Source of the DNA: Allobosea sp. WAO
GTDB taxonomy: Bacteria; Pseudomonadota; Alphaproteobacteria; Rhizobiales; Beijerinckiaceae
Direction: 5' to 3'
NCBI RefSeq assembly: GCF_001509835.1
Contig: NZ_JXTJ01000009.1
Span: forward strand, 62,001-126,000
DNA length: 64,000 bases
Shown: positions 4,968 through 38,660 of the stretch, one piece after another
Numbering within the stretch: the first letter of the stretch is position 1
How the letters are laid out: each line of letters begins with the position of its first letter
Translations under genes and position numbers: made by a program
Notes under the pieces: model-generated
Database searches by the model: none
Seen by the model: the letters and a program-made list of their open reading frames with translations, nothing else
Told to the model about the DNA's origin: nothing

Positions 4968-5092
4968 TACGGACGGGGCTCCGGGGCGGGCTCGCCCAGC
5001 ATAGCGGAGGTGGGGAAATCCGCGCCTCTGTTCTGCACCGCCGATCCGAAGCGACGCCCTGCGGTCGCTTCAGCCTCCGCAGGGCGCCGGCC

Positions 5093-5884
5093 TCAGTGAC
5101 CGGCCGTATGCAGGATCTGGCCGAGGAATTTGCGCGTGCGCTCGTTCTCCGGCGCCCGGAAGAACTGCTCGGGCGGCGCGACCTCGACGATCTCGCCGGC
5201 ATCCATGAAAATCACCCGGTCGGCGACCTTGCGGGCAAAGCCCATCTCATGGGTGACGACCAGCATGGTCATGCCGCTCTCGGCGAGTTCGACCATGACG
5301 TCGAGCACCTCGCTGACCATTTCGGGATCGAGCGCCGAGGTCGGCTCGTCGAACAGCATGATCTTCGGGTTCATGCAGAGCGAGCGGGCGATCGCGACGC
5401 GCTGCTGCTGGCCGCCCGAGAGCTGGATCGGGAATTTCATCGCCTGCTCGGGGATATGCACGCGCTCGAGCATGATGCGCGCGGCAGCCTCGGCCTCCGC
5501 CCTCGGGATGCCGCGGACCTTCATCGGCGCCAGCGTGCAGTTCTCCAGCGCGGTCAGGTGCGGGAACAGGTTGAAGCTCTGGAACACCATGCCGATCTCG
5601 CGGCGGACATCCTCGATGCCGCGCAGGCCCGCATGCACCGTGGTGCCGTCGATGACGATCTCGCCGGACTGGTGCTCCTCGAGCTGGTTGAGGCAGCGGA
5701 TCAGCGTCGACTTGCCCGAGCCCGAAGGCCCGCAGATCACGATGCGCTCGCCGCGGGTGACCGAGAGGTCGATGTTCCTGAGCACATGGAAGTCGCCGTA
5801 GAACTTGTCGACCTTGCGCATCTGGATGATCGGGGCTTCGTCCGATCGTGCCACGGGCTTGGTCGCGGTCGCTTCGCTCGCCAT
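5093..5884 (-). CDS. Polar amino acid ABC transporter ATP-binding protein (GlnQ/AapP type)
   Basis: 263 residues; the ATPase of a type I importer. Walker [11 protein letters not shown]-loop [12 protein letters not shown], signature [13 protein letters not shown], Walker [15 protein letters not shown] and the H-loop VVTHEM are all intact. The [24 protein letters not shown] stretch is the hallmark of polar amino acid transporter ATPases. A GTG codon lies directly before the chosen ATG at 5884. Last of four same-strand genes: permease, permease, binding protein, ATPase. Located downstream of the LacI-linked catabolic genes, so its substrate may feed that pathway. Confidence 0.95.
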
Positions 5885-29750: not shown

Positions 29751-29872
29751 ATGGCCTTGACGATTCGACCCTGCCCATGCGGCACTGTCACCGGACCGGC
29801 GCGGATCGGGTTCACGGACTCGATGTCGCAGATTGCATCGACGTGCTTGTAGTGAGCCGAGGACGACTTCCG

Positions 29873-31519
29873 ATGATCGCCCAGTTGACGATTGCAGAAC
29901 GACGGCTGGCATTAGCCATCCTGGTTGCCGTTGCCTTGTGCGGTCTCTTGCTGACGATCGCCGGTCAGGGCGACCCGATCGGCGTGCACGGACTGATGTT
30001 CCTGGTCGCCGGCGCCGTCGGGATCTTCGTGGTGATTGCCGGCTATCTTTCGCCGGAGCCGAGCGCTGAACGGCTGCAGCACTATTACGACGAGCCGACC
30101 AAATTCGGCATCGTCATGGCGATGGCCTGGGCCGTGCTCGGCCTGTTCGTCGGCGACTGGGTCGCCTGGCTCCTGGTCTACCCTGAGCTGACCTTCGATG
30201 CCGGCTGGGCGAGCTTCGGCCGCATCCGGCCGATCCACACCACCGGCGTGATCTTCGGCTTCGGTGGCAACGCCCTGATCGCCACCTCCTTCTATGTCGT
30301 GCAGCGCACCTCACGGGCACGTCTGCCGGACCAGCTCAGCCCCTGGTTCGTGCTGCTCGGCTACAACCTTTTCTGCCTCATCGCCGTCACCGGCTACATG
30401 ATGGGCATCACCCAGTCGAAGGAATATGCCGAGCCGGAATGGTACGCCGATATCTGGCTCGTGGTCGTCTGGGTCACCTATTTCATCCTCTATGTAAGGA
30501 CGCTCGCCCGCCGCAAGGAGCCGCATATCTACGTCTCCAACTGGTACTACATGGCGTTCATCCTGGTCGTGGCGATCCTTCACATCGTCAACAACCTCGC
30601 CATGCCGATCTCGCTTGGCCAGGCGAAGAGCTATTCCGCCTTCTCCGGCGTCCAGGATGCGATGACGCAGTGGTGGTACGGCCACAACGCCGTCGCCTTC
30701 TTCCTGACCGCCGGCTTCCTCGGCATGATGTATTACTACCTGCCGAAGCGCGCCGACCGGCCGATCTACTCCTACCGGATGTCGATCATCAGCTTCTGGG
30801 GCATCACCTTCTTCTACATGTGGGCGGGCTCGCACCACCTGCACTACACGGCCCTGCCGCAATGGGTGCAGAGCCTCGGCGTGACCTTCTCGGTCATGCT
30901 GCTGGTGCCGTCCTGGGCTTCTGCCGGCAACGCGCTCCTGACCCTGAACGGCGCCTGGGACAAGGTGCGCGACGACGCGACTTTGCGCTTCATGATGGTC
31001 GCCGCCGTGTTCTACGGCCTCTCCACCTTCGAGGGGTCGTTCATGGCGATCCGCCAGGTCAACGCGCTATCGCATTACACCGACTGGACGGTCGGCCATG
31101 TCCATGCCGGCGCGCTTGGCTGGGTCGCGATGATCACCTTCGGCGCGATCTACGCCACCGTGCCCTGGCTCTGGAAGCGCAAGGCGATGTACTCGGCCGG
31201 GCTGGTCGAGGTGCACTTCTGGCTCGCACTCGCCGGTACCGTCATCTACGTCTTTTCGATGTGGAATTCCGGCATCATCCAGGGGCTGATGTGGCGGACC
31301 TACAATGAAAGCGGCACGCTGGCCTATTCCTTCCTCGACTCGCTCGTGGCGATGCGGCCCTACTACATCGCCCGCGCGATCGGCGGCCTGCTCTTCCTGA
31401 TCGGCGCGCTGGTCGGCTGCTACAATATCTGGATGACGATCCGGGCAGCCCATCTGCACGATCCGGCCGCGGATAGTTCGGTGCCGGTTCCGGCCCCGGC
31501 CCTTCAGCCCGGGGAGTGA
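29873..31519 (+). CDS. ccoN: cbb3-type cytochrome c oxidase subunit I (CcoN)
   Basis: 548 residues, 12-14 helices; the haem-copper catalytic subunit of the high-affinity terminal oxidase. Expected ligands are present: His122 in RPIHTTGV (low-spin haem b), His271 in WWYGHNAVAFF (CuB), His321/322 in AGSHHLHYT (CuB), His409 and His411 in VGHVHAGALGW (haems). Start at MIAQLTIAER (GAGGA about 9 nt before the ATG); an in-frame ATG 96 bp upstream would add a non-conserved hydrophilic tail lying at the presumed transcription start. First gene of ccoNOQP. Confidence 0.96.
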   Translation: MIAQLTIAERRLALAILVAVALCGLLLTIAGQGDPIGVHGLMFLVAGAVGIFVVIAGYLSPEPSAERLQHYYDEPTKFGIVMAMAWAVLGLFVGDWVAWLLVYPELTFDAGWASFGRIRPIHTTGVIFGFGGNALIATSFYVVQRTSRARLPDQLSPWFVLLGYNLFCLIAVTGYMMGITQSKEYAEPEWYADIWLVVVWVTYFILYVRTLARRKEPHIYVSNWYYMAFILVVAILHIVNNLAMPISLGQAKSYSAFSGVQDAMTQWWYGHNAVAFFLTAGFLGMMYYYLPKRADRPIYSYRMSIISFWGITFFYMWAGSHHLHYTALPQWVQSLGVTFSVMLLVPSWASAGNALLTLNGAWDKVRDDATLRFMMVAAVFYGLSTFEGSFMAIRQVNALSHYTDWTVGHVHAGALGWVAMITFGAIYATVPWLWKRKAMYSAGLVEVHFWLALAGTVIYVFSMWNSGIIQGLMWRTYNESGTLAYSFLDSLVAMRPYYIARAIGGLLFLIGALVGCYNIWMTIRAAHLHDPAADSSVPVPAPALQPGE

Positions 31520-31524
31520 CGCCG

Positions 31525-32322
31525 ATGTTTGGTCTGCACTACCGCCTCGAACGCAAGACGCTCGGTTTCGTGCTGGCGGTGATCGGCGTCGCCAGCATTG
31601 GCGGCCTCGTCGAGATCGCGCCGCTCTTCACCATCAACCAGACGGTGGAGGACGCGCCCGACATGCGCGTCTACACGCCGCTGGAGGTGGCTGGCCGCAA
31701 CATCTACATCCGCGAGGGCTGCTATGCCTGCCATTCGCAGATGATCCGCACCCTGCGCGACGAGGTCGAGCGCTACGGGCCTTACTCGCTCGCGGTCGAG
31801 TCGAAATACGACCACCCGATGCTCTGGGGCTCGAAGCGCACCGGCCCCGACCTCGCCCGCAATGGCGGCAAGTATTCGGATGCCTGGCATGTCGCGCATC
31901 TCAACAATCCGCGCGACGTCGTCCCCGTCTCGATCATGCCGGCCTATTCCTGGTTCCTGCGCACGCCGCTGCGGACCGACGATCTCGGCAAGCATCTGCG
32001 TTCGCTCCGCGCCGTCGGCGTGCCCTATACCGACGAGATGATCGCCAACGCCCCGGCCGACGCTTATGGCCAGGCGGCGCCGGACTCGCCCTTCGCAGAA
32101 GGCGTGAGCAAGCGTTATGGCGAGGCGACGACGGTGCGTGCCTTCGACGGCAAGCCCAATGAACTGACCGAGATGGACGCGATCGTCGCCTATCTCCAGA
32201 TCCTCGGCCGCCTGACCGATGCCGCCCACAAGCCGTCCGTCGCGACGGAAACCGGGCCGGCAGGCACCAAGTCGGCGGAAGCCAAGCCGGCAGAAGCCAC
32301 GCCATCTGGAGGCAAGCCATGA
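31525..32322 (+). CDS. ccoO: cbb3-type cytochrome c oxidase subunit II (CcoO)
   Basis: 265 residues: one N-terminal membrane anchor (LGFVLAVIGVASIGGLVEIAPLF) and a periplasmic mono-haem c domain with CYACH (Cys66-His70). Distal Met is probably in VSIMPAYSWF. Start ATG 31525 has GGGGAG 8 nt upstream; an in-frame GTG three codons earlier is less likely. The C-terminal 35 residues are an Ala/Glu/Lys/Pro-rich tail (TKSAEAKPAEATPSGGKP), longer than typical. Overlaps ccoQ by ATGA. Confidence 0.95.
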   Translation: MFGLHYRLERKTLGFVLAVIGVASIGGLVEIAPLFTINQTVEDAPDMRVYTPLEVAGRNIYIREGCYACHSQMIRTLRDEVERYGPYSLAVESKYDHPMLWGSKRTGPDLARNGGKYSDAWHVAHLNNPRDVVPVSIMPAYSWFLRTPLRTDDLGKHLRSLRAVGVPYTDEMIANAPADAYGQAAPDSPFAEGVSKRYGEATTVRAFDGKPNELTEMDAIVAYLQILGRLTDAAHKPSVATETGPAGTKSAEAKPAEATPSGGKP

Positions 32323-32489
32323 GCCTCGCCCATGACACGGCTGTCTGGTTCTCGAAATCCTACGGGCTGTTCTACCTGATCGGGCTCTCGGTCGCCGTCC
32401 TGGTCTACACTTACTGGCCGTCGAACAAGCAGCACTTCGACAAGGCCGCCGATTCCATCCTGCGCGACGAGGACCGGCCATGGCGGTAG
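32319..32489 (+). CDS. ccoQ: cbb3-type oxidase small subunit CcoQ
   Basis: 56 residues with a single membrane helix (YGLFYLIGLSVAVLVYTYW) and a charged C-terminus (FDKAADSILRDEDRPWR), the usual form of CcoQ/FixQ. It overlaps ccoO by 4 bp and ccoP by 10 bp. CcoQ stabilises the CcoP interaction with the core complex. Confidence 0.9.
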   Translation: MSLAHDTAVWFSKSYGLFYLIGLSVAVLVYTYWPSNKQHFDKAADSILRDEDRPWR

Positions 32490-33352
32490 AAGAGCGGGAC
32501 CCTCACAGCGGCTTCCTGACCACCGGTCATGAATGGAGCGGCATCAAGGAGCTCAACACGCCGGTTCCCCGGGCGGTGTACTTCTTCCTGATCGCGACCT
32601 TCGTCTTCTCGCTCTTCTATTGGCTCTTGATGCCGGCCTGGCCGACAGGCGTGAGCTACACCAAGGGGCTGCTCGGCGCCGACGACCGCAAGAACATCGC
32701 GCGCTCGCTGGAGCAGGCCGAGCAGGCGCGCGCCTGGAGCAAGAAGATCGAGGCCGCCGACTTCGCCGCGATCCAGGCCGATCCCGCTTTGATGGCGATC
32801 GTGCGCCAGAGCGGCCGAACCCTGTTCGGCGACAATTGCGCGGTCTGCCACGGCACCGACGCCAAGGGCAGCAAGGGCTTCCCCGATCTCACCGCCGCGT
32901 CGACGCTCTGGGGTAGCACGCCCGAGGCGCTGATGGAGACGATCCGGGTCGGGATCAATTCCGGCCATGGCGAGAGCCGCACCGCCCAGATGCTCGCCTT
33001 CGGCAGGGACGGCATGATCCCGCGCGCCGATGTCGAGAACGTCACCGCCTTCGTCCAGTCGCTGTCGGCGGCGCCGGGCAGCATCGATAAGGCCAAGGTC
33101 GAGGCTGGCAAGGCCGTCTACGCCGCCAATTGCGCCGCCTGCCATGGCGAAGAGGGCAGGGGCAATGCCGAGCTCGGCGCGCCCGACCTGACCGACAAGG
33201 CCTGGACTTATGGCGGCGACACGCAGTCGATCTTCAACTCGGTCTGGCATGGCCGGCAGGGCCAGATGCCGGCCTGGGAGAACCGGCTGTCGCCGGTCGA
33301 CCGCAAGATCCTGGCGCTCTACCTCGCCGATCTCAGGAAGCCCCGGCCATGA
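32480..33352 (+). CDS. ccoP: cbb3-type cytochrome c oxidase subunit III (CcoP)
   Basis: 290 residues: conserved N-terminal HEWSGIKELNTPVPRAVYFF before a single helix, then two c-type haem domains with CAVCH (Cys120-His124) and CAACH (Cys218-His222), each with a downstream Met ligand candidate (GMIPRA and GQMPAWENRL). It passes electrons from the bc1 complex/cytochrome c to CcoO and CcoN. One N-terminal helix as is usual for alphaproteobacterial CcoP. Confidence 0.96.
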   Translation: MAVEERDPHSGFLTTGHEWSGIKELNTPVPRAVYFFLIATFVFSLFYWLLMPAWPTGVSYTKGLLGADDRKNIARSLEQAEQARAWSKKIEAADFAAIQADPALMAIVRQSGRTLFGDNCAVCHGTDAKGSKGFPDLTAASTLWGSTPEALMETIRVGINSGHGESRTAQMLAFGRDGMIPRADVENVTAFVQSLSAAPGSIDKAKVEAGKAVYAANCAACHGEEGRGNAELGAPDLTDKAWTYGGDTQSIFNSVWHGRQGQMPAWENRLSPVDRKILALYLADLRKPRP

Positions 33353-33561
33353 GCGAGATCGTGTCCAGCCCGCAGGCGCGCCGACGCAAGCTCGTCGTGG
33401 GGCTGGCGGTCGGCGGCGGCTTGCTGCTGCTGGCCGGCGCCAACTGGCATCTGGTCCATGTCGCGATCTCGTCCCAGCCCGATTGCGTTCCCCATCTCCG
33501 GCGGGGCGAAGGCGAGGGCCGGCCGGGTGCCTACAGCGCCGCCCGTTCGGCCTGCCGGTAG
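33349..33561 (+). CDS. Small membrane-anchored protein of the cbb3 cluster, 70 residues
   Basis: Starts by ATGA overlap with ccoP, so it is almost certainly translated. One helix (LVVGLAVGGGLLLLAGANWHLVHVAI) and a short tail SSQPDCVPHLRRGEGEGRPGAYSAARSACR with two cysteines, probably periplasmic. It occupies the place where ccoG or ccoH normally follow. It is too short and unlike FixH in sequence. Function unknown; a role in oxidase assembly is suggested by the location. Confidence 0.75.
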   Translation: MSEIVSSPQARRRKLVVGLAVGGGLLLLAGANWHLVHVAISSQPDCVPHLRRGEGEGRPGAYSAARSACR

Positions 33562-33600
33562 AGGTGACGGAATGAAGCCCACTCCGCAGCGAGGCGAACC

Positions 33601-34383
33601 ATGATCATCCCGGCCGTCGTCCCTCCGCTCCCGCGCGAGAACAAATGGAGCCGCGGCCTGCCCGCCTCCGCCGCCTTCGACTGGCTGCGGGCCGGCTGGC
33701 AGGACATCGTCGACAACCCGATGCCGAGCCTGAGCTATGGGCTCCTTGTCTTCCTGGTCTCGCTCGCGGTGGTCGCCTGTTTCGTCTCCTTCGGCTGGGA
33801 CTACATCCTGTTCCCGGCCTTGGCCGGGTTCATGGTGGTCGGTCCGCTCTTCGCGATCGGGCTCTATGAGAAGAGCCGCCGGCACGCTCTCGGCGAGCGC
33901 ATCGGCCTCGGGCGGATGGTCTTCGTCAAGCCGGCCTCGGGCGGGCAGGTGCTGTTCACCGGCGTACTGCTCTGCCTGCTGATGCTGACCTGGATGCGGG
34001 CGGCGGTTCTGATCTACGCGTTGTTCTTCGGCCTGCGTCCCTTCCCGGGGCTCGACCATATCGTCGGCATGCTGTTCACCACGCCGGTCGGGCTGGCGAT
34101 GCTGTTCGTCGGCAGTGCCGTCGGCGGCCTTTTCGCCGCCTTCTCCTTCGCGATCAGCGTCTTTGCGATCCCGATGCAGCTCGACAAGCGGGTCGACGCG
34201 CTGACGGCGATGGGCAGCAGCACCGCGCTGGTCTGGAACAACCTGCCGGTGATGCTGACCTGGGGCGCGATCGTCCTCGGCCTGTTCCTGCTGAGCCTCG
34301 TCACCGGCCTGCTCGGCCTGATTGTCGTGTTCCCGCTTCTGGGGCACGGCACCTGGTACGCCTATCGCGCGATCGCGGCCTGA
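33601..34383 (+). CDS. DUF2189 family integral membrane protein
   Basis: 260 residues, six predicted helices. The family signature is visible: AAFDWLRAGWQDIVDNPMPSLSYGLLVFLVSL near the N-terminus and SFAISVFAIPMQLDKRVDALTAMGSSTALVWNNLPVMLTWG. Known members are annotated only as DUF2189 and are often close to cbb3 genes in alphaproteobacteria. The gene lies between the cbb3 structural genes and the copper ATPase, so a link with oxidase assembly is plausible. No enzymatic motif seen. Confidence 0.85.
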   Translation: MIIPAVVPPLPRENKWSRGLPASAAFDWLRAGWQDIVDNPMPSLSYGLLVFLVSLAVVACFVSFGWDYILFPALAGFMVVGPLFAIGLYEKSRRHALGERIGLGRMVFVKPASGGQVLFTGVLLCLLMLTWMRAAVLIYALFFGLRPFPGLDHIVGMLFTTPVGLAMLFVGSAVGGLFAAFSFAISVFAIPMQLDKRVDALTAMGSSTALVWNNLPVMLTWGAIVLGLFLLSLVTGLLGLIVVFPLLGHGTWYAYRAIAA

Positions 34384-34413
34384 GCGGGCCGCCTTCGCTC
34401 TCTGGAGCCTTCG

Positions 34414-36690
34414 ATGAGTTGCTGCGCACCCGGCGCCGACTATGCGACGGCGGATCACAGGCTGACCGCCGACGAGATTCTGCTGGCAAGCCGGCCCGTG
34501 GGCGGCGGGGCGCGCCAGACCGATCTCTCCGTGCCCGGCATTCATTGCGGCGGCTGCATCGCGACCATCGAGAAGGCCTTGTCGGCGCTGCCGGGCGTCG
34601 AGCGGGCAAGGGTCAACCTCTCGACCAAGCGTGTCTCGATCCGATGGCGCGACGGAGCGCCGCCGCCCTTCGCCGAGACGCTCGTCGGTGTCGGCTATGA
34701 GGCCCATCTCGACGATAGCGGCGAGTCCGGCACCGACGCGGCGCTCTCCGAACTGATCCGTTCGCTGGCGGTCGCCGGCTTCGCCTCGATGAACATCATG
34801 CTGCTCTCGGTCTCGGTCTGGTCCGGCGCCGAGCCGGCGACGCGCGATCTATTCCACTGGATTTCGGCGCTGATCGCCTTGCCGGCGCTCGCCTATTCCG
34901 GCCGCGTCTTCTTCCGTTCTGCCTGGGGCGCGCTGCGCAAGGGCCGCACCAACATGGATGTGCCGATCTCGATCGGCGTCTCGCTCGCCTTCGCGCTTAG
35001 CCTCTACGAGACGGTGCATGGCGGCCCCCACGCCTATTTCGATGCCGCGATCTCGCTGCTCTTCTTCCTGCTGATCGGCCGAACGCTGGACCATGTCATG
35101 CGCGAGCGGGCGCGGGTTGCGGTGAAGGGCCTCGCCCGGCTCGCGGCGCGTGGCGCGCTCGTGATCGGCCCGGACGGCTCCGGTACCTATCTGCCGGTCG
35201 CCGAGATCGAGCCCGGCATGACCATCCGGCTCGCTGCGGGTGAGCGCGTTCCGGTCGATGCCCGCGTGCTCGAAGGCGCTTCCGAACTCGACTGCTCGCT
35301 GGTCTCGGGTGAGAGCCTGCCGCAACCCGCCATGGCCGGGCAGGTTCTGCAGGCCGGCACGCTCAACCTGACGCGGCCGCTAACGATCACCGCGACCGCA
35401 GCGGCACGCGATTCCTTCCTCGCCGAAATGGTCCGCATGATGGAGGCGGCCGAGGAAGGGCGCTCGCTCTACCGGCGCATCGCCGACCGGGCGGCGCGAC
35501 TTTACGCGCCGGTCATCCACCTCACCGCCTTCTTGACCTTTCTCGGTTGGATAGCGGCGACCGGCGATGCCCACCGCGCGATCACCATCGCCATCGCCGT
35601 GCTGATCGTGACCTGTCCCTGCGCGCTCGGCCTCGCCGTGCCGATGGTCCAGATCATGGCGGCACGCCGGTTGTTCGAGAAGGGCATCATGGTCAAGGAC
35701 GGCGCCGCCATGGAGCGCCTCGCCGAGATTGACAGTGTCGTCTTCGACAAGACGGGAACGCTGACCCACGGCCATCCGCGCCTGCTCGATGCACAGGCCC
35801 ACGACTCGGAAGCTCTGGCGCTGGCTGCGGCACTCGCTGGCCATTCACGCCATCCCTATTCGCGCACCCTGGTCGCGGCGGCGGCCGGGCTGGGCCGCCC
35901 GGATGGCAGGATCGTCTTCTCCGAGGTTTCCGAGCTGCCTGGGGCGGGGCTCGAAGCCCGGGCGGGTGGGGCGCTCTATCGTCTTGGCCGGCCGGAATGG
36001 GCGCTCGGTGCCGGTGCTGCGCCGGACGACATGGCGAGCGAGGCCCGCGTCGTGCTCAGCCGCGACGGGCGCGCTCTGGCGCGCTTCAGCTTCGACGATC
36101 GTCTCAGGGCCGATGCGCGCCAGGCGATCTCGGCGCTGACAGCCGCCGGGCTCGAGGTCGAGATCCTGTCGGGTGATCGCGAGGAACCGGTTCGCCGGCT
36201 AGCCGCGGCGCTCGGCCTGCCGCATGGCGCGCGGGTCTCGCCCGGCGGCAAGCTCGCCCATGTCGAGGCCGCCGCTGCTGCCGGGCACAAGGTGCTGATG
36301 GTCGGCGACGGCCTCAATGACGCGCCGGCGCTGGCGCGTGCCCATGCGTCGATGGCGCCGGCGACCGCGGCCGATGTCGGGCGCAACGCCGCCGATTTCG
36401 TCTTCCTGCGCGAGAGTCTGCTTGCCGTGCCGCAGGCGCTCGCCGTGGCGCGCGAGGCCGGCAAGCTCGTCCGGCAGAACATCTTCCTCGCCGTCGCCTA
36501 CAACGCGATCGCGATTCCGATCGCTGTGCTCGGCTATGTCACGCCGCTGATCGCGGCAGTCACCATGTCGTTGTCCTCGCTGCTGGTCATCGGCAACGCC
36601 TTGCGCCTCGGGCGGCACGCCGCGAGCGGGCTTAACCCGGAGTCGCCTGCACAGGAGCCGGCGGGCGCCCCCGCCATCGCCCTGCGATGA
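34414..36690 (+). CDS. ccoI: Copper-exporting P1B-type ATPase for cbb3 assembly (CcoI/FixI)
   Basis: 758 residues. One heavy-metal-associated domain with Cys45-x-x-Cys48 in GIHCGGCIATIEKAL, extra Cys-Cys at the very N-terminus (MSCCAPGAD), membrane CPC motif (Cys401-Pro-Cys403), phosphorylation site DKTGTLT (Asp445) and hinge motif GDGLNDAPAL. Organisation and linkage to ccoNOQP and ccoS identify it as the FixI/CcoI type, which moves copper to the periplasm for the CuB site. Confidence 0.95.
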   Translation: MSCCAPGADYATADHRLTADEILLASRPVGGGARQTDLSVPGIHCGGCIATIEKALSALPGVERARVNLSTKRVSIRWRDGAPPPFAETLVGVGYEAHLDDSGESGTDAALSELIRSLAVAGFASMNIMLLSVSVWSGAEPATRDLFHWISALIALPALAYSGRVFFRSAWGALRKGRTNMDVPISIGVSLAFALSLYETVHGGPHAYFDAAISLLFFLLIGRTLDHVMRERARVAVKGLARLAARGALVIGPDGSGTYLPVAEIEPGMTIRLAAGERVPVDARVLEGASELDCSLVSGESLPQPAMAGQVLQAGTLNLTRPLTITATAAARDSFLAEMVRMMEAAEEGRSLYRRIADRAARLYAPVIHLTAFLTFLGWIAATGDAHRAITIAIAVLIVTCPCALGLAVPMVQIMAARRLFEKGIMVKDGAAMERLAEIDSVVFDKTGTLTHGHPRLLDAQAHDSEALALAAALAGHSRHPYSRTLVAAAAGLGRPDGRIVFSEVSELPGAGLEARAGGALYRLGRPEWALGAGAAPDDMASEARVVLSRDGRALARFSFDDRLRADARQAISALTAAGLEVEILSGDREEPVRRLAAALGLPHGARVSPGGKLAHVEAAAAAGHKVLMVGDGLNDAPALARAHASMAPATAADVGRNAADFVFLRESLLAVPQALAVAREAGKLVRQNIFLAVAYNAIAIPIAVLGYVTPLIAAVTMSLSSLLVIGNALRLGRHAASGLNPESPAQEPAGAPAIALR

Positions 36691-36941
36691 TGGACTTCTT
36701 CTATCTGATCCCGATCGCCATCGCGCTCGGCGTCATCGGGCTTTGCGCCTTCATGTGGTCGCTGCGCAGCGGCCAGTACGAGGACCTCGACGGCGCGGCG
36801 GCCCGAATTCTTCTCGACGACGAGGCGCTCCCGCCGGCGAACCCGGTCTCCGGCGCGGAAAATAGTGCGGAGGGCCCCACGTCCGAGGCGGCCTCTAGCG
36901 CAGGCTCGCCCCAAGCCGAAGCGCCTCCTCGGCCTCGTTGA
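36687..36941 (+). CDS. ccoS: cbb3 oxidase maturation protein CcoS/FixS
   Basis: 84 residues. The first 50 match CcoS: one helix (FYLIPIAIALGVIGLCAFMWSLRSGQYEDLDGAAARILLDDE), with the conserved GQYEDLDG motif. The Pro/Ser/Ala/Glu-rich tail of about 35 residues is longer than normal. It overlaps ccoI by ATGA, and its 3' end overlaps the 3' end of the convergent globin-like gene by 47 bp. Confidence 0.9.
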   Translation: MMDFFYLIPIAIALGVIGLCAFMWSLRSGQYEDLDGAAARILLDDEALPPANPVSGAENSAEGPTSEAASSAGSPQAEAPPRPR

Positions 36942-37359
36942 GGCGCTGGGCCAGCGGAACAGCTGCGGCGGCAGACGTCGCAGGCTCGAGGGCGCGCAGG
37001 ACGAGCGCGCCGACATGCTCGGAGAGTTCCGACAGGCTGGCCGCGGCGTGGAAGGGCAGCACTTCCAGCGCCGCCTCCATGAAGACCTCGCAGGCATCGC
37101 GGACATGGTCCGGCTCCAGCGCGGGAAAGGCCTCATGCAGCGCGACGATCGCGCCGCCGTGTTCGCCAGTCTGGAACAGCAGCGCGCCGAGAAAGCGGGC
37201 GAAGTCGTCCTCGAATTCCTGCCAGCGATTGCCGATGATCCTGTCGAGCCCGCCGCGCAGCCGCCTGTGCCGGCGCAGGCGCTCGCTCAGTGATTCCGCG
37301 ATATCGCGCAGGATATCGTCATCGACGAAGATCGACGGATCAAGCACCAGTGTCGCCAT
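36895..37359 (-). CDS. Diverged globin-like protein, probably NsrR-controlled
   Basis: 154 residues from MATLVLDPSI (a longer frame starts at 37392). No database label comes to mind, but it aligns without gaps to the group III truncated haemoglobin encoded at 38200: Trp46 to Gly65 and Trp46 to His75 are spaced 19 and 29 residues, exactly as Trp51, Gly70 and His80 there. TGEHGG replaces SGRYGG; HEAFPALEPDHV corresponds to the F-helix region starting with the proximal His. The B10 Tyr of the haemoglobin is Ser25 here. A 23-bp NsrR-like repeat lies 67 bp upstream. I infer a haem-binding or haem-free globin of the NO response; assignment is by eye and not proven. Confidence 0.6.
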   Translation of the reverse strand: MATLVLDPSIFVDDDILRDIAESLSERLRRHRRLRGGLDRIIGNRWQEFEDDFARFLGALLFQTGEHGGAIVALHEAFPALEPDHVRDACEVFMEAALEVLPFHAAASLSELSEHVGALVLRALEPATSAAAAVPLAQRLNEAEEALRLGASLR

Positions 37360-37425
37360 GCTGCGCATCCCTTGCCGGTCGGCCGGCACCATGCCCTGAG
37401 CAGTCGTTGGCCTCGTAGTCTAAAT

Positions 37426-37448
37426 AAGAGGCATATATAATGCATCTT
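37426..37448. promoter_or_regulatory. NsrR-type operator upstream of the globin-like gene
   Basis: 23-bp imperfect inverted repeat of 11-1-11 form: left arm AAGAGGCATAT, right arm TAATGCATCTT. Resembles the AAGATGCAT-type consensus recognised by NsrR in proteobacteria. Located before the minus-strand gene ending at 36895. Confidence 0.7.
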
Positions 37449-37504: not shown

Positions 37505-37981
37505 TCAGGTGGCGGCCTGGGAGGCCCTGCGCCGTGCCGGCTTCGGAGCGTCCTGCGTCGGCGCCGTGATGCCGAAATCCTCCGGCCTGAGCACGAGATC
37601 GGCCAGGGTGTAGCGGTCGAGCGTCGTCACGAAGGCGCTGAGCGCCTCGTTGAGCACGCCGCGCAGGCGGCAGCGGGGCGTGACCAGGCAGCGATTGCCG
37701 GCCTCGAAGCACTCGACCAGCGCGAAATCCGGCTCGGTCGCGCGCAGCACCGCCCCGACGCCGATTTCGCCGGGGGGCCGCGCCAGCACGAGGCCGCCGG
37801 AGCGCCCGCGTATGGATTTGAGGAAGCCGGCACGTACCAAGAGGTTCGCGACTTTCATCAGATGGGCCCGGGAAATGCCGTAGACCGCGGCGGTTTCCTC
37901 GATTGTGATCAGCTGGCCGTCCCGCGTCGCCGCATACATCAGCAGGCGCAGGGAATAGTCGGAGAAGTTCGTCAAACGCAT
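37505..37981 (-). CDS. nsrR: Rrf2-family nitric oxide-sensing repressor NsrR
   Basis: 158 residues from MRLTNFSDYSLRLLMYAA. Winged helix with HTH (YGISRAHLMKVANLLVRAGFLKSIRGRSGGLVLARPP) and three cysteines, Cys91, Cys98 and Cys104 (ECFEAGNRCLVTPRCRL), that bind the [4Fe-4S] cluster in NsrR; Asp8, the fourth ligand known from Streptomyces NsrR, is also in place. That distinguishes it from IscR and RirA. It should repress NO-defence genes until NO destroys the cluster. An 11-1-11 repeat lies 48 bp upstream of its start, suggesting autoregulation. Confidence 0.9.
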   Translation of the reverse strand: MRLTNFSDYSLRLLMYAATRDGQLITIEETAAVYGISRAHLMKVANLLVRAGFLKSIRGRSGGLVLARPPGEIGVGAVLRATEPDFALVECFEAGNRCLVTPRCRLRGVLNEALSAFVTTLDRYTLADLVLRPEDFGITAPTQDAPKPARRRASQAAT

Positions 37982-38028
37982 TGCGGCTTCCGGCGCTGTC
38001 GTCCCGGGCTGCAGTCGGGTCACGGTGA

Positions 38029-38199: not shown

Positions 38200-38646
38200 C
38201 TAAGCGACGCTGACGGCAACCGCCGCCCGGCCCGGCAGGTGCAGCGCCTTGTCGCCGATGTTGAGCCCGATCTGCAGGCTGTCGGCGACGCGCCGGGCCC
38301 GCCCGATGAAGAGGGCGGCAGCAGGACCCGCGCAATGCGCGTTGACGACCCCCTCGAACAGCACGAGCCAGTGCTCGAAATGCTCCATCGTCAGCCCGAG
38401 TCCGAAATGGGCGACGTGCGGCTTGCCTCCATAGCGGCCGCTCATCAGCGTCAGCGACGACCAGAAATCGACCATGGTGGCGAGATGCGCATCCCAGCCA
38501 TCGCCGATCCGCTCCTCGAATATCGGTCCGAGCACGGCGTCCTGGCGGATCAGGGCATAGAAGTCGTGCACGATCCGCTCGACCAGCGGCTCGGAGACGT
38601 CCTGGGGAAGGGGTGGGATCAAGGTGATGATCCTTTTAAGATGCAT
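38200..38646 (-). CDS. Group III truncated haemoglobin
   Basis: 148 residues from MHLKRIITLI. Two-over-two globin with VERIVHDFYALIRQDAVLGPIF (Tyr30 at B10), GDGWDAHLATMVDFWSSLTLMSGRYGG and proximal His80 in HVAHFGLGLTMEHFEHWLVLF, all characteristic of the trHb III group. Such proteins act in NO or oxygen chemistry, e.g. NO dioxygenation. The NsrR-type repeat covers the presumed ATG, so translation may really start at TTG 38622, which has AAAAGGA about 8 nt upstream and would remove eight residues without touching the globin core. Confidence 0.88.
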   Translation of the reverse strand: MHLKRIITLIPPLPQDVSEPLVERIVHDFYALIRQDAVLGPIFEERIGDGWDAHLATMVDFWSSLTLMSGRYGGKPHVAHFGLGLTMEHFEHWLVLFEGVVNAHCAGPAAALFIGRARRVADSLQIGLNIGDKALHLPGRAAVAVSVA

Positions 38647-38660
38647 GTCTAATGTCACTT
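38638..38660. promoter_or_regulatory. NsrR-type operator at the haemoglobin gene start
   Basis: 11-1-11 repeat: left arm AAGATGCATGT, right arm TAATGTCACTT. The left arm is a perfect half-site; the right arm is degenerate. It overlaps the ATG of the truncated haemoglobin frame. Confidence 0.6.

Follow-up and report, generated by a model that had tools for sequence, protein, structure and literature searches.

A globin-like fold used without haem is found in the N-terminal domain of RsbR and in the sporulation-inhibitory sensor domains of Bacillus. To our knowledge, these haem-free globin-fold regulators, and likewise the N-terminal domain of MabR/PucR, are not derived from group III truncated globins. 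A globin-like fold also characterises the MabR/PucR domain (PMC11617747). For the truncated haemoglobins (trHbs), PMC4720485 describes the proximal His F8 as strictly conserved, His E7 and Trp E15 as hallmarks of group P (= III), and the GG motif as highly variable in that group. The NsrR core is given as gATGyAT-N5-ATrCATc and the NnrR consensus as TTGCG-N4-CGCAA in PMC1274295.

The gene under study, designated X, is located at 36895..37359 on the minus strand of the window (the whole 64-kb stretch of DNA that was analysed) and encodes a 154-aa relative of the group III trHbs that is predicted to be without the usual means of holding haem. Compared with group III proteins such as Ctb of Campylobacter jejuni (2ig3), X is alike in profile, predicted fold, Trp E4 and Phe E14, but 24 of 24 sequences lack Tyr B10, Phe CD1, His E7 and Trp G8, 22 of 24 lack Trp E15, and likewise 22 of 24 lack His F8, and its predicted models carry an extra C-terminal helix. 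It shares a predicted globin-like fold with the haem-free regulators, but is a free-standing domain encoded in nitric oxide (NO) gene clusters. Its setting and promoter-like boxes are similar to those of the NsrR- or NnrR-controlled NO accessory genes nnrS and nnrU, whereas none of the Pfam or NCBIfam families, those of nnrS and nnrU among them, is matched by it. No comparable protein was found among the literature matches listed, in a search that left most subscription papers outside.

The start of X was placed at the ATG at 37359; the longer open reading frame (36895-37392) has a gene-like GC content of 0.78/0.45/0.83 at the three codon positions. In Pfam and NCBIfam searches no match was obtained up to an E-value limit of 10, in agreement with the preliminary description, in which the protein had no recognisable name. 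The 23 homologues showed identities of 25-82% and a conserved length, and dN/dS was 0.13-0.25 in five Bosea pairs (dS being near saturation, 1.67, in the pair of the window and G006). X is under purifying selection, and a pseudogene was ruled out by these dN/dS values and the conserved length.

Upstream of X and on the same strand are an NsrR-like Rrf2 regulator (37505..37981, minus strand; Pfam Rrf2, 2.1e-32) and a group III truncated haemoglobin (38200..38646, minus strand; 2ig3 at E 4.5e-13). The regulator probably starts at the ATG at 37981, the listed open reading frame beginning at the GTG at 38023. Its NCBIfam scores were 125.8 bits for NsrR (cutoff 182) and 121.5 bits for RirA (cutoff 193), and the name NsrR is likely but not certain because RirA scores close and both are below cutoff. 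The trHb III reached 18 bits against PF01152 (cutoff 21), so that an automatic annotator could miss it. A cbb3 oxidase cluster (29777..36941, plus strand) is convergent with X and includes ccoN, ccoO, ccoP, a DUF2189 gene, a ccoI-type ATPase gene (named by its ATPase/HMA domains and place) and a ccoS-like open reading frame (named by size and place only). The final 47 bases of this last frame (36687-36941, plus strand) are shared with the 3' end of X (36895-36941), the two meeting tail to tail. The DUF2189 membrane protein (33601-34383) is encoded between ccoP and the ATPase gene, and the order ccoP-DUF2189-ccoI recurs in loci of Bosea and of a second genus of the same order (g6); in other gene orders ccoG/ccoH occupy this place.

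Sequences with 110 bits or more with profiles A2/A3 (A3 built without the copies of G1217, G1198 and G1219) were called X. On this basis X was present in 10/67 genomes of the window's genus, and in 13 of the 75 genomes of genus g6 (15 copies). It also occurs in G323, which belongs to the family of the window genome, and in the MAG locus L002. A clear score gap was seen in the Bosea, genus g6 and phylum samples, with X at 110 bits or above and all other sequences at most at 59.1 bits. Counted among the matches listed (at most 30 per search) for the best 9 or 10 candidates per genome, where weak X relatives were possibly missed, profile A1 reached 62 bits or more in at least 4 of 397 genomes of the order sample (the window genome, G323, G404 and G215) and at least 1 of 385 of the class sample (the window genome), and X was found in at least 2 of 398 of the phylum sample (the window genome and G323), the next best match at 59.1 bits being a trHb III by reading. 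A plasmid search with the window X gave two records only, both at E 0.2 and annotated as group III truncated hemoglobin, and a search with a genus g6 X gave none.

An alignment without gaps between X and the trHb III of the window had been proposed in the preliminary description. This register was recovered around helices E and F, W46, G65 (W+19), G68-G69 and H75 (W+29) of X having their counterparts at matching offsets in W51, G70, G73-G74 and H80. The Gly-Gly pair of the window X is not common to the X family, and it is weak evidence of kinship because the GG motif is so variable in group P (PMC4720485). BLASTP of X against the window trHb III gave E 0.002 over 60 columns. A first profile, made from an alignment of eight X proteins, reached trHb III at E 9.5e-12 in one genome and matched at least 89 of 397 order genomes and at least 33 of 385 class genomes; among the matches listed, those other than X looked like trHb III over helices B to H, with the exception of the altered L023. 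With a profile of 24 X proteins only, 2ig3 was the sole significant match in the PDB (E 5.7e-5; next E 0.7; 177,635 sequences). In the reverse direction, a profile of 28 trHb III pieces, cut to the span aligned by the X profile, retrieved the window X with an E value of 4.2e-10, calculated for a nominal 177,635 sequences, and over the 24 X rows the trHb III profile ranged from 1.2e-13 (L002) to 0.1 (L093). X is homologous by profile to the group III truncated haemoglobins, and chance or composition as the source of the likeness was ruled out by the BLASTP and reciprocal profile matches. In a tree of 59 rows, X formed one side of a single branch with support 100/99; 32 trHb III rows were used, many others being left out together with L125 and L137 (<90 residues), and L001 duplicates L004.

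Two AlphaFold models, one based on all 24 X rows (pLDDT 84.6) and the other on just the 15 of genus g6 (pLDDT 87.7), were all-helical, with helices assigned as B, C, E, F, G and H and one further C-terminal helix. Foldseek placed 2ig3 as the first PDB match of both models, with TM up to 0.83 by target, 0.69 by query and probability 1.00, while no match reached E 0.001 (top E 3.1e-3 and 1.7e-3). A 2/2 globin fold is predicted for X on these models. Structure prediction had been suggested beforehand as a check, and the models were globin-like with 2ig3 as the best fold match, a non-globin outcome not being seen. The globin ancestry and the group III affinity first proposed are borne out by the sequence profiles and the predicted fold, by which the descent of X as a divergent group III truncated globin is supported.

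The residues of the haem pocket were counted in 24 X rows and 45 trHb III rows, the pocket-altered L023 (the Y protein of locus L164, see below) being kept outside the 45. Positions were numbered by counting on alignments with 2ig3 (Y19 = B10, H46 = E7, H72 = F8, W86 = G8), the chain of which, when compared with X, contains three inserted residues ahead of Trp E4. All 45 trHb III rows have Tyr B10, Phe CD1, His E7, Trp E15, His F8 and Trp G8. In X the first three and Trp G8 were found in none of the 24 rows: B10 is always Ser, CD1 is Leu (16), Met (7) or Cys (1), E7 is Ala (15) or Phe (9) and G8 is Leu (16), Ala (7) or Phe (1). Trp E15 is present in two rows (L002 and L078). The replacement of Tyr B10 by Ser, already noted for the window protein, was correct and is invariant across the family. 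Position F8 is Ala in 12 rows, Phe in 6, His in 2 and Tyr, Glu, Val and Asp in one each. His is restricted to the window and its sister G017, each of which uses CAT. The residue is Tyr (TAC) in G006 and Phe in G030 (TTC), in three more Bosea rows, in L002 and in L078, and the 15 genus g6 rows have Ala (12), Glu, Val or Asp. The proximal His described at the outset as kept is therefore present in the window protein but is not a family trait, and His75 may be secondary as easily as a relic, because F8 varies so across the relatives. X as a family lacks the set of residues typical of group III truncated haemoglobins (His F8 and Trp E15 in 2/24 each; His E7, Tyr B10, Phe CD1 and Trp G8 in none), and a haem pocket kept across the X family was ruled out by the residue counts.

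These counts bear on whether X may still be a haem protein, in which another residue (His75 of the window, or His104) would bind haem or NO and make it a carrier or scavenger. His75 occupies F8 in the window protein and in that of G017, 20/24 rows have His104 and the gene lies beside NO genes, but 22/24 rows have another residue at F8 (Ala, Phe, Tyr, Glu, Val or Asp), none of the 24 keeps Tyr B10, His E7, Trp G8 or Phe CD1, and His104 is at the start of the model helix 103-124 and missing in 4 rows; this possibility is considered improbable. Among the roles first offered for the protein (sensor, NO carrier or haem-independent relative), the loss of pocket residues favours, at the sequence level, the haem-independent one.

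The positions invariant in X are Ser25, Arg29, Leu34, Gly43, Asn44, Trp46, Glu50, Pro102, Ala106 and Gly150, those of the pocket region being Ser B10, Asn 44 and Glu E8 together with Arg B14 and Trp E4. Trp46 (Trp E4) is present in 24/24 X and 45/45 trHb III rows and Phe E14 in 20/24 X rows; Glu E8 is not unique to X, since it occurs in 5/45 trHb III rows. With the predicted fold kept and the cofactor residues gone, the emptied pocket might bind another small apolar ligand, e.g. a lipid, by analogy with some haem-less sensor globins that bind such a ligand, although this is regarded as distinctly improbable. As the haem-holding positions are nearly all lost while fold and selection are kept, we infer the absence of haem and argue for a haem-free task.

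In 9/10 Bosea copies X is immediately preceded by an nsrR gene of like orientation, and the tenth (G006) adjoins a cbb3 cluster. Genes for cbb3 oxidase are near X in the window, G017, G006 and G1217, norCBQ-type genes in G022 and an NnrS-like gene in G1198, while NnrS adjoins X in G323. Within genus g6, 12 of the 15 X copies are within about 6.5 kb of nnrU, nnrS, nirK/nirV or cbb3 genes (nnrU near 9/15, cbb3 8/15, nnrS 3/15; nirK-nirV-nnrR-nnrS in two). No clear NO or cbb3 gene was found in the 13-14 kb covered at the other three (the second copy of G853, G830 and G215), one of which (L150) has only copper oxidases with 32-37% identity to nirK. The neighbours of X vary between loci. Pfam identifies NnrS and NnrU by name. 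For nirK, nirV, nnrR and norB it shows Cu-oxidase, FGE-sulfatase, Crp-type and COX1 domains, and these four names were assigned here, as were norC and norQ, which were recognised by eye. A NorB-type gene was detected in 9/10 Bosea X genomes (G1217 had no NorB-type match) vs 13/57 others (Fisher p 9.3e-5) and NnrU in 13/13 genus g6 X genomes vs 16/62 others (Fisher p 5.4e-7), values that overstate the evidence because related genomes are not independent.

The trHb III was not linked to X in this way, being present in 9/10 X genomes vs 45/57 others (p 0.67). That X partners the trHb III protein, or is a pseudo-subunit of it, could be read from the window, G017 and L002, where both genes are neighbours with NsrR-like sites, but besides the lack of linkage G006 has X and no trHb III match, and in six other Bosea X genomes the trHb III is on another contig or 760 kb off; such a role is judged very improbable. 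In G1219 X and trHb III are both at contig ends and may be adjacent. X as an obligate partner of trHb III was not supported by the co-occurrence.

Candidate NsrR sites were scored against a consensus, a 23-base palindrome, with a threshold of 16/23. Within the window, sites at or above this threshold were found only at 37426, 38627 and 38638, i.e. at X and at the trHb III, and none was found in each of three mononucleotide-shuffled windows. The palindrome at 37426..37448 matches 20/23 in its better orientation and starts at -89 of X. Two overlapping palindromes at 38627..38660 match 17/23 each, and they overlap the assumed start codon of the trHb III. X has, as judged from the sequence, a putative NsrR-type operator upstream, as a member of an NsrR regulon would. 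The NsrR control proposed in the preliminary description gains from this operator-like palindrome, with the reserve that the regulator is below the NsrR cutoff and RirA is close.

NsrR-like sites of at least 16/23 precede X or the nsrR-X pair in 9/10 Bosea copies. Those ahead of nsrR are about 20 to 380 bases away, and some Bosea sites also face, and could serve, a divergent gene. L077 has one more such site away from X, G323 has a site of 16/23 at -82, and L002 has sites of 18/23 and 19/23 ahead of nsrR and trHb III with only 14/23 ahead of X. In G006, where nsrR is not adjacent, TTG-N8-CAA at -64 takes the place of such a site. This FNR/NnrR-type box starts at -60 to -90 in 14 of the 15 X copies of genus g6, two of these boxes matching the NnrR consensus, and at 26 of 226 control starts of open reading frames, which may include other low-oxygen genes and mis-called starts. 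Given the NsrR-like sites of Bosea and the FNR/NnrR-type boxes of genus g6, X seems to be under different NO/low-oxygen regulators in the two lineages.

X could also modulate a transcription factor, above all NsrR, as a regulator or sensor without haem, for which haem-less sensor globins elsewhere are a precedent. The nsrR-X pairs of 9/10 Bosea copies fit this possibility, as do the NsrR-like matches of at least 120 bits in 4/13 X genomes of genus g6 vs 10/62 others, the match lying within about 15 kb of an X copy in two of the four (G853 and G404). However, 9/13 genus g6 X genomes have only weaker Rrf2 matches, as in nearly all 75 genomes, and X is there mostly beside nnrU, nnrS and cbb3 genes, so a regulatory role of this kind is taken as unlikely. 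X as a factor for NsrR only is disfavoured by the genus g6 genomes without an NsrR-like match of at least 120 bits. The co-occurrence with nsrR that had been suggested as a check stood in Bosea by adjacency, but not in the 9/13 X genomes of genus g6 just mentioned.

The steady company of X is NO/low-oxygen respiration, not trHb III or NsrR as such, and a protein-binding accessory is therefore preferred. X would have descended from a group III truncated haemoglobin, keeping the predicted 2/2 globin fold and losing the residues that hold haem and its ligand. Its synthesis would accompany the induction of denitrification-type genes by nitric oxide or low oxygen, through NsrR derepression in Bosea-type genomes and through an FNR/NnrR-type activator in genus g6. 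As a soluble, haem-free accessory that binds proteins it may help to protect or mature NO-exposed respiratory machinery, with cbb3 oxidase, NnrS/NnrU and nitrite/NO reductase as candidate targets. While ancestry, predicted fold, residue loss, linkage and promoter-like boxes are computed results, we infer the regulation itself, the binding of a partner and the choice of that partner, and hold this identification of X, a former haemoglobin acting as an NO/low-oxygen-induced protein-binding accessory without haem, to be evenly balanced between belief and doubt. A fuller reading, in which a trHb lineage shed its haem under selection and became a dedicated haem-free component of NO respiration, with Arg B14 and Trp E4 retained from its past, with Ser B10, Asn 44 and Glu E8 as an invariant set next to them and with separate recruitment by NsrR and by FNR/NnrR-type control, is put forward tentatively, with doubt slightly ahead of belief.

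A second kind of pocket-altered trHb III paralogue, designated Y, was observed in genus g129 at L164 (6397-6828, minus strand), L165 (5351-5764, plus strand) and L166 (7179-7592, minus strand). The Y genes adjoin a Crp/Fnr-type regulator, and a normal trHb III is near in L165 and L166. By reading, Y of L165 has Ser B10, Tyr E7 and Tyr F8, with Trp E15 and Trp G8 kept; the trHb III profile scored 62.3 bits with Y of L165 and 52.5 bits with that of L164. Separately, L078 encodes a 160-aa protein (5034-5513, minus strand) that matches nothing in Pfam and is preceded, at 5542, by an NsrR-like site (15/23). A search among three sequences (E 7e-4) showed it to be faintly like X around Gly-Trp-x3-Glu, while the trHb III profile gave no match; it is a possible relative of X.

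X is thereby a testable candidate for an accessory role in denitrification and cbb3 respiration. On the proposed reading, a haemoglobin of bacteria would be able to give up its haem and yet stay in its pathway. If the fuller reading is true, the 2/2 globin would be a scaffold for protein binding that bacteria can use again, and the Y proteins (L164-L166, a third lineage) would be another event of this kind.
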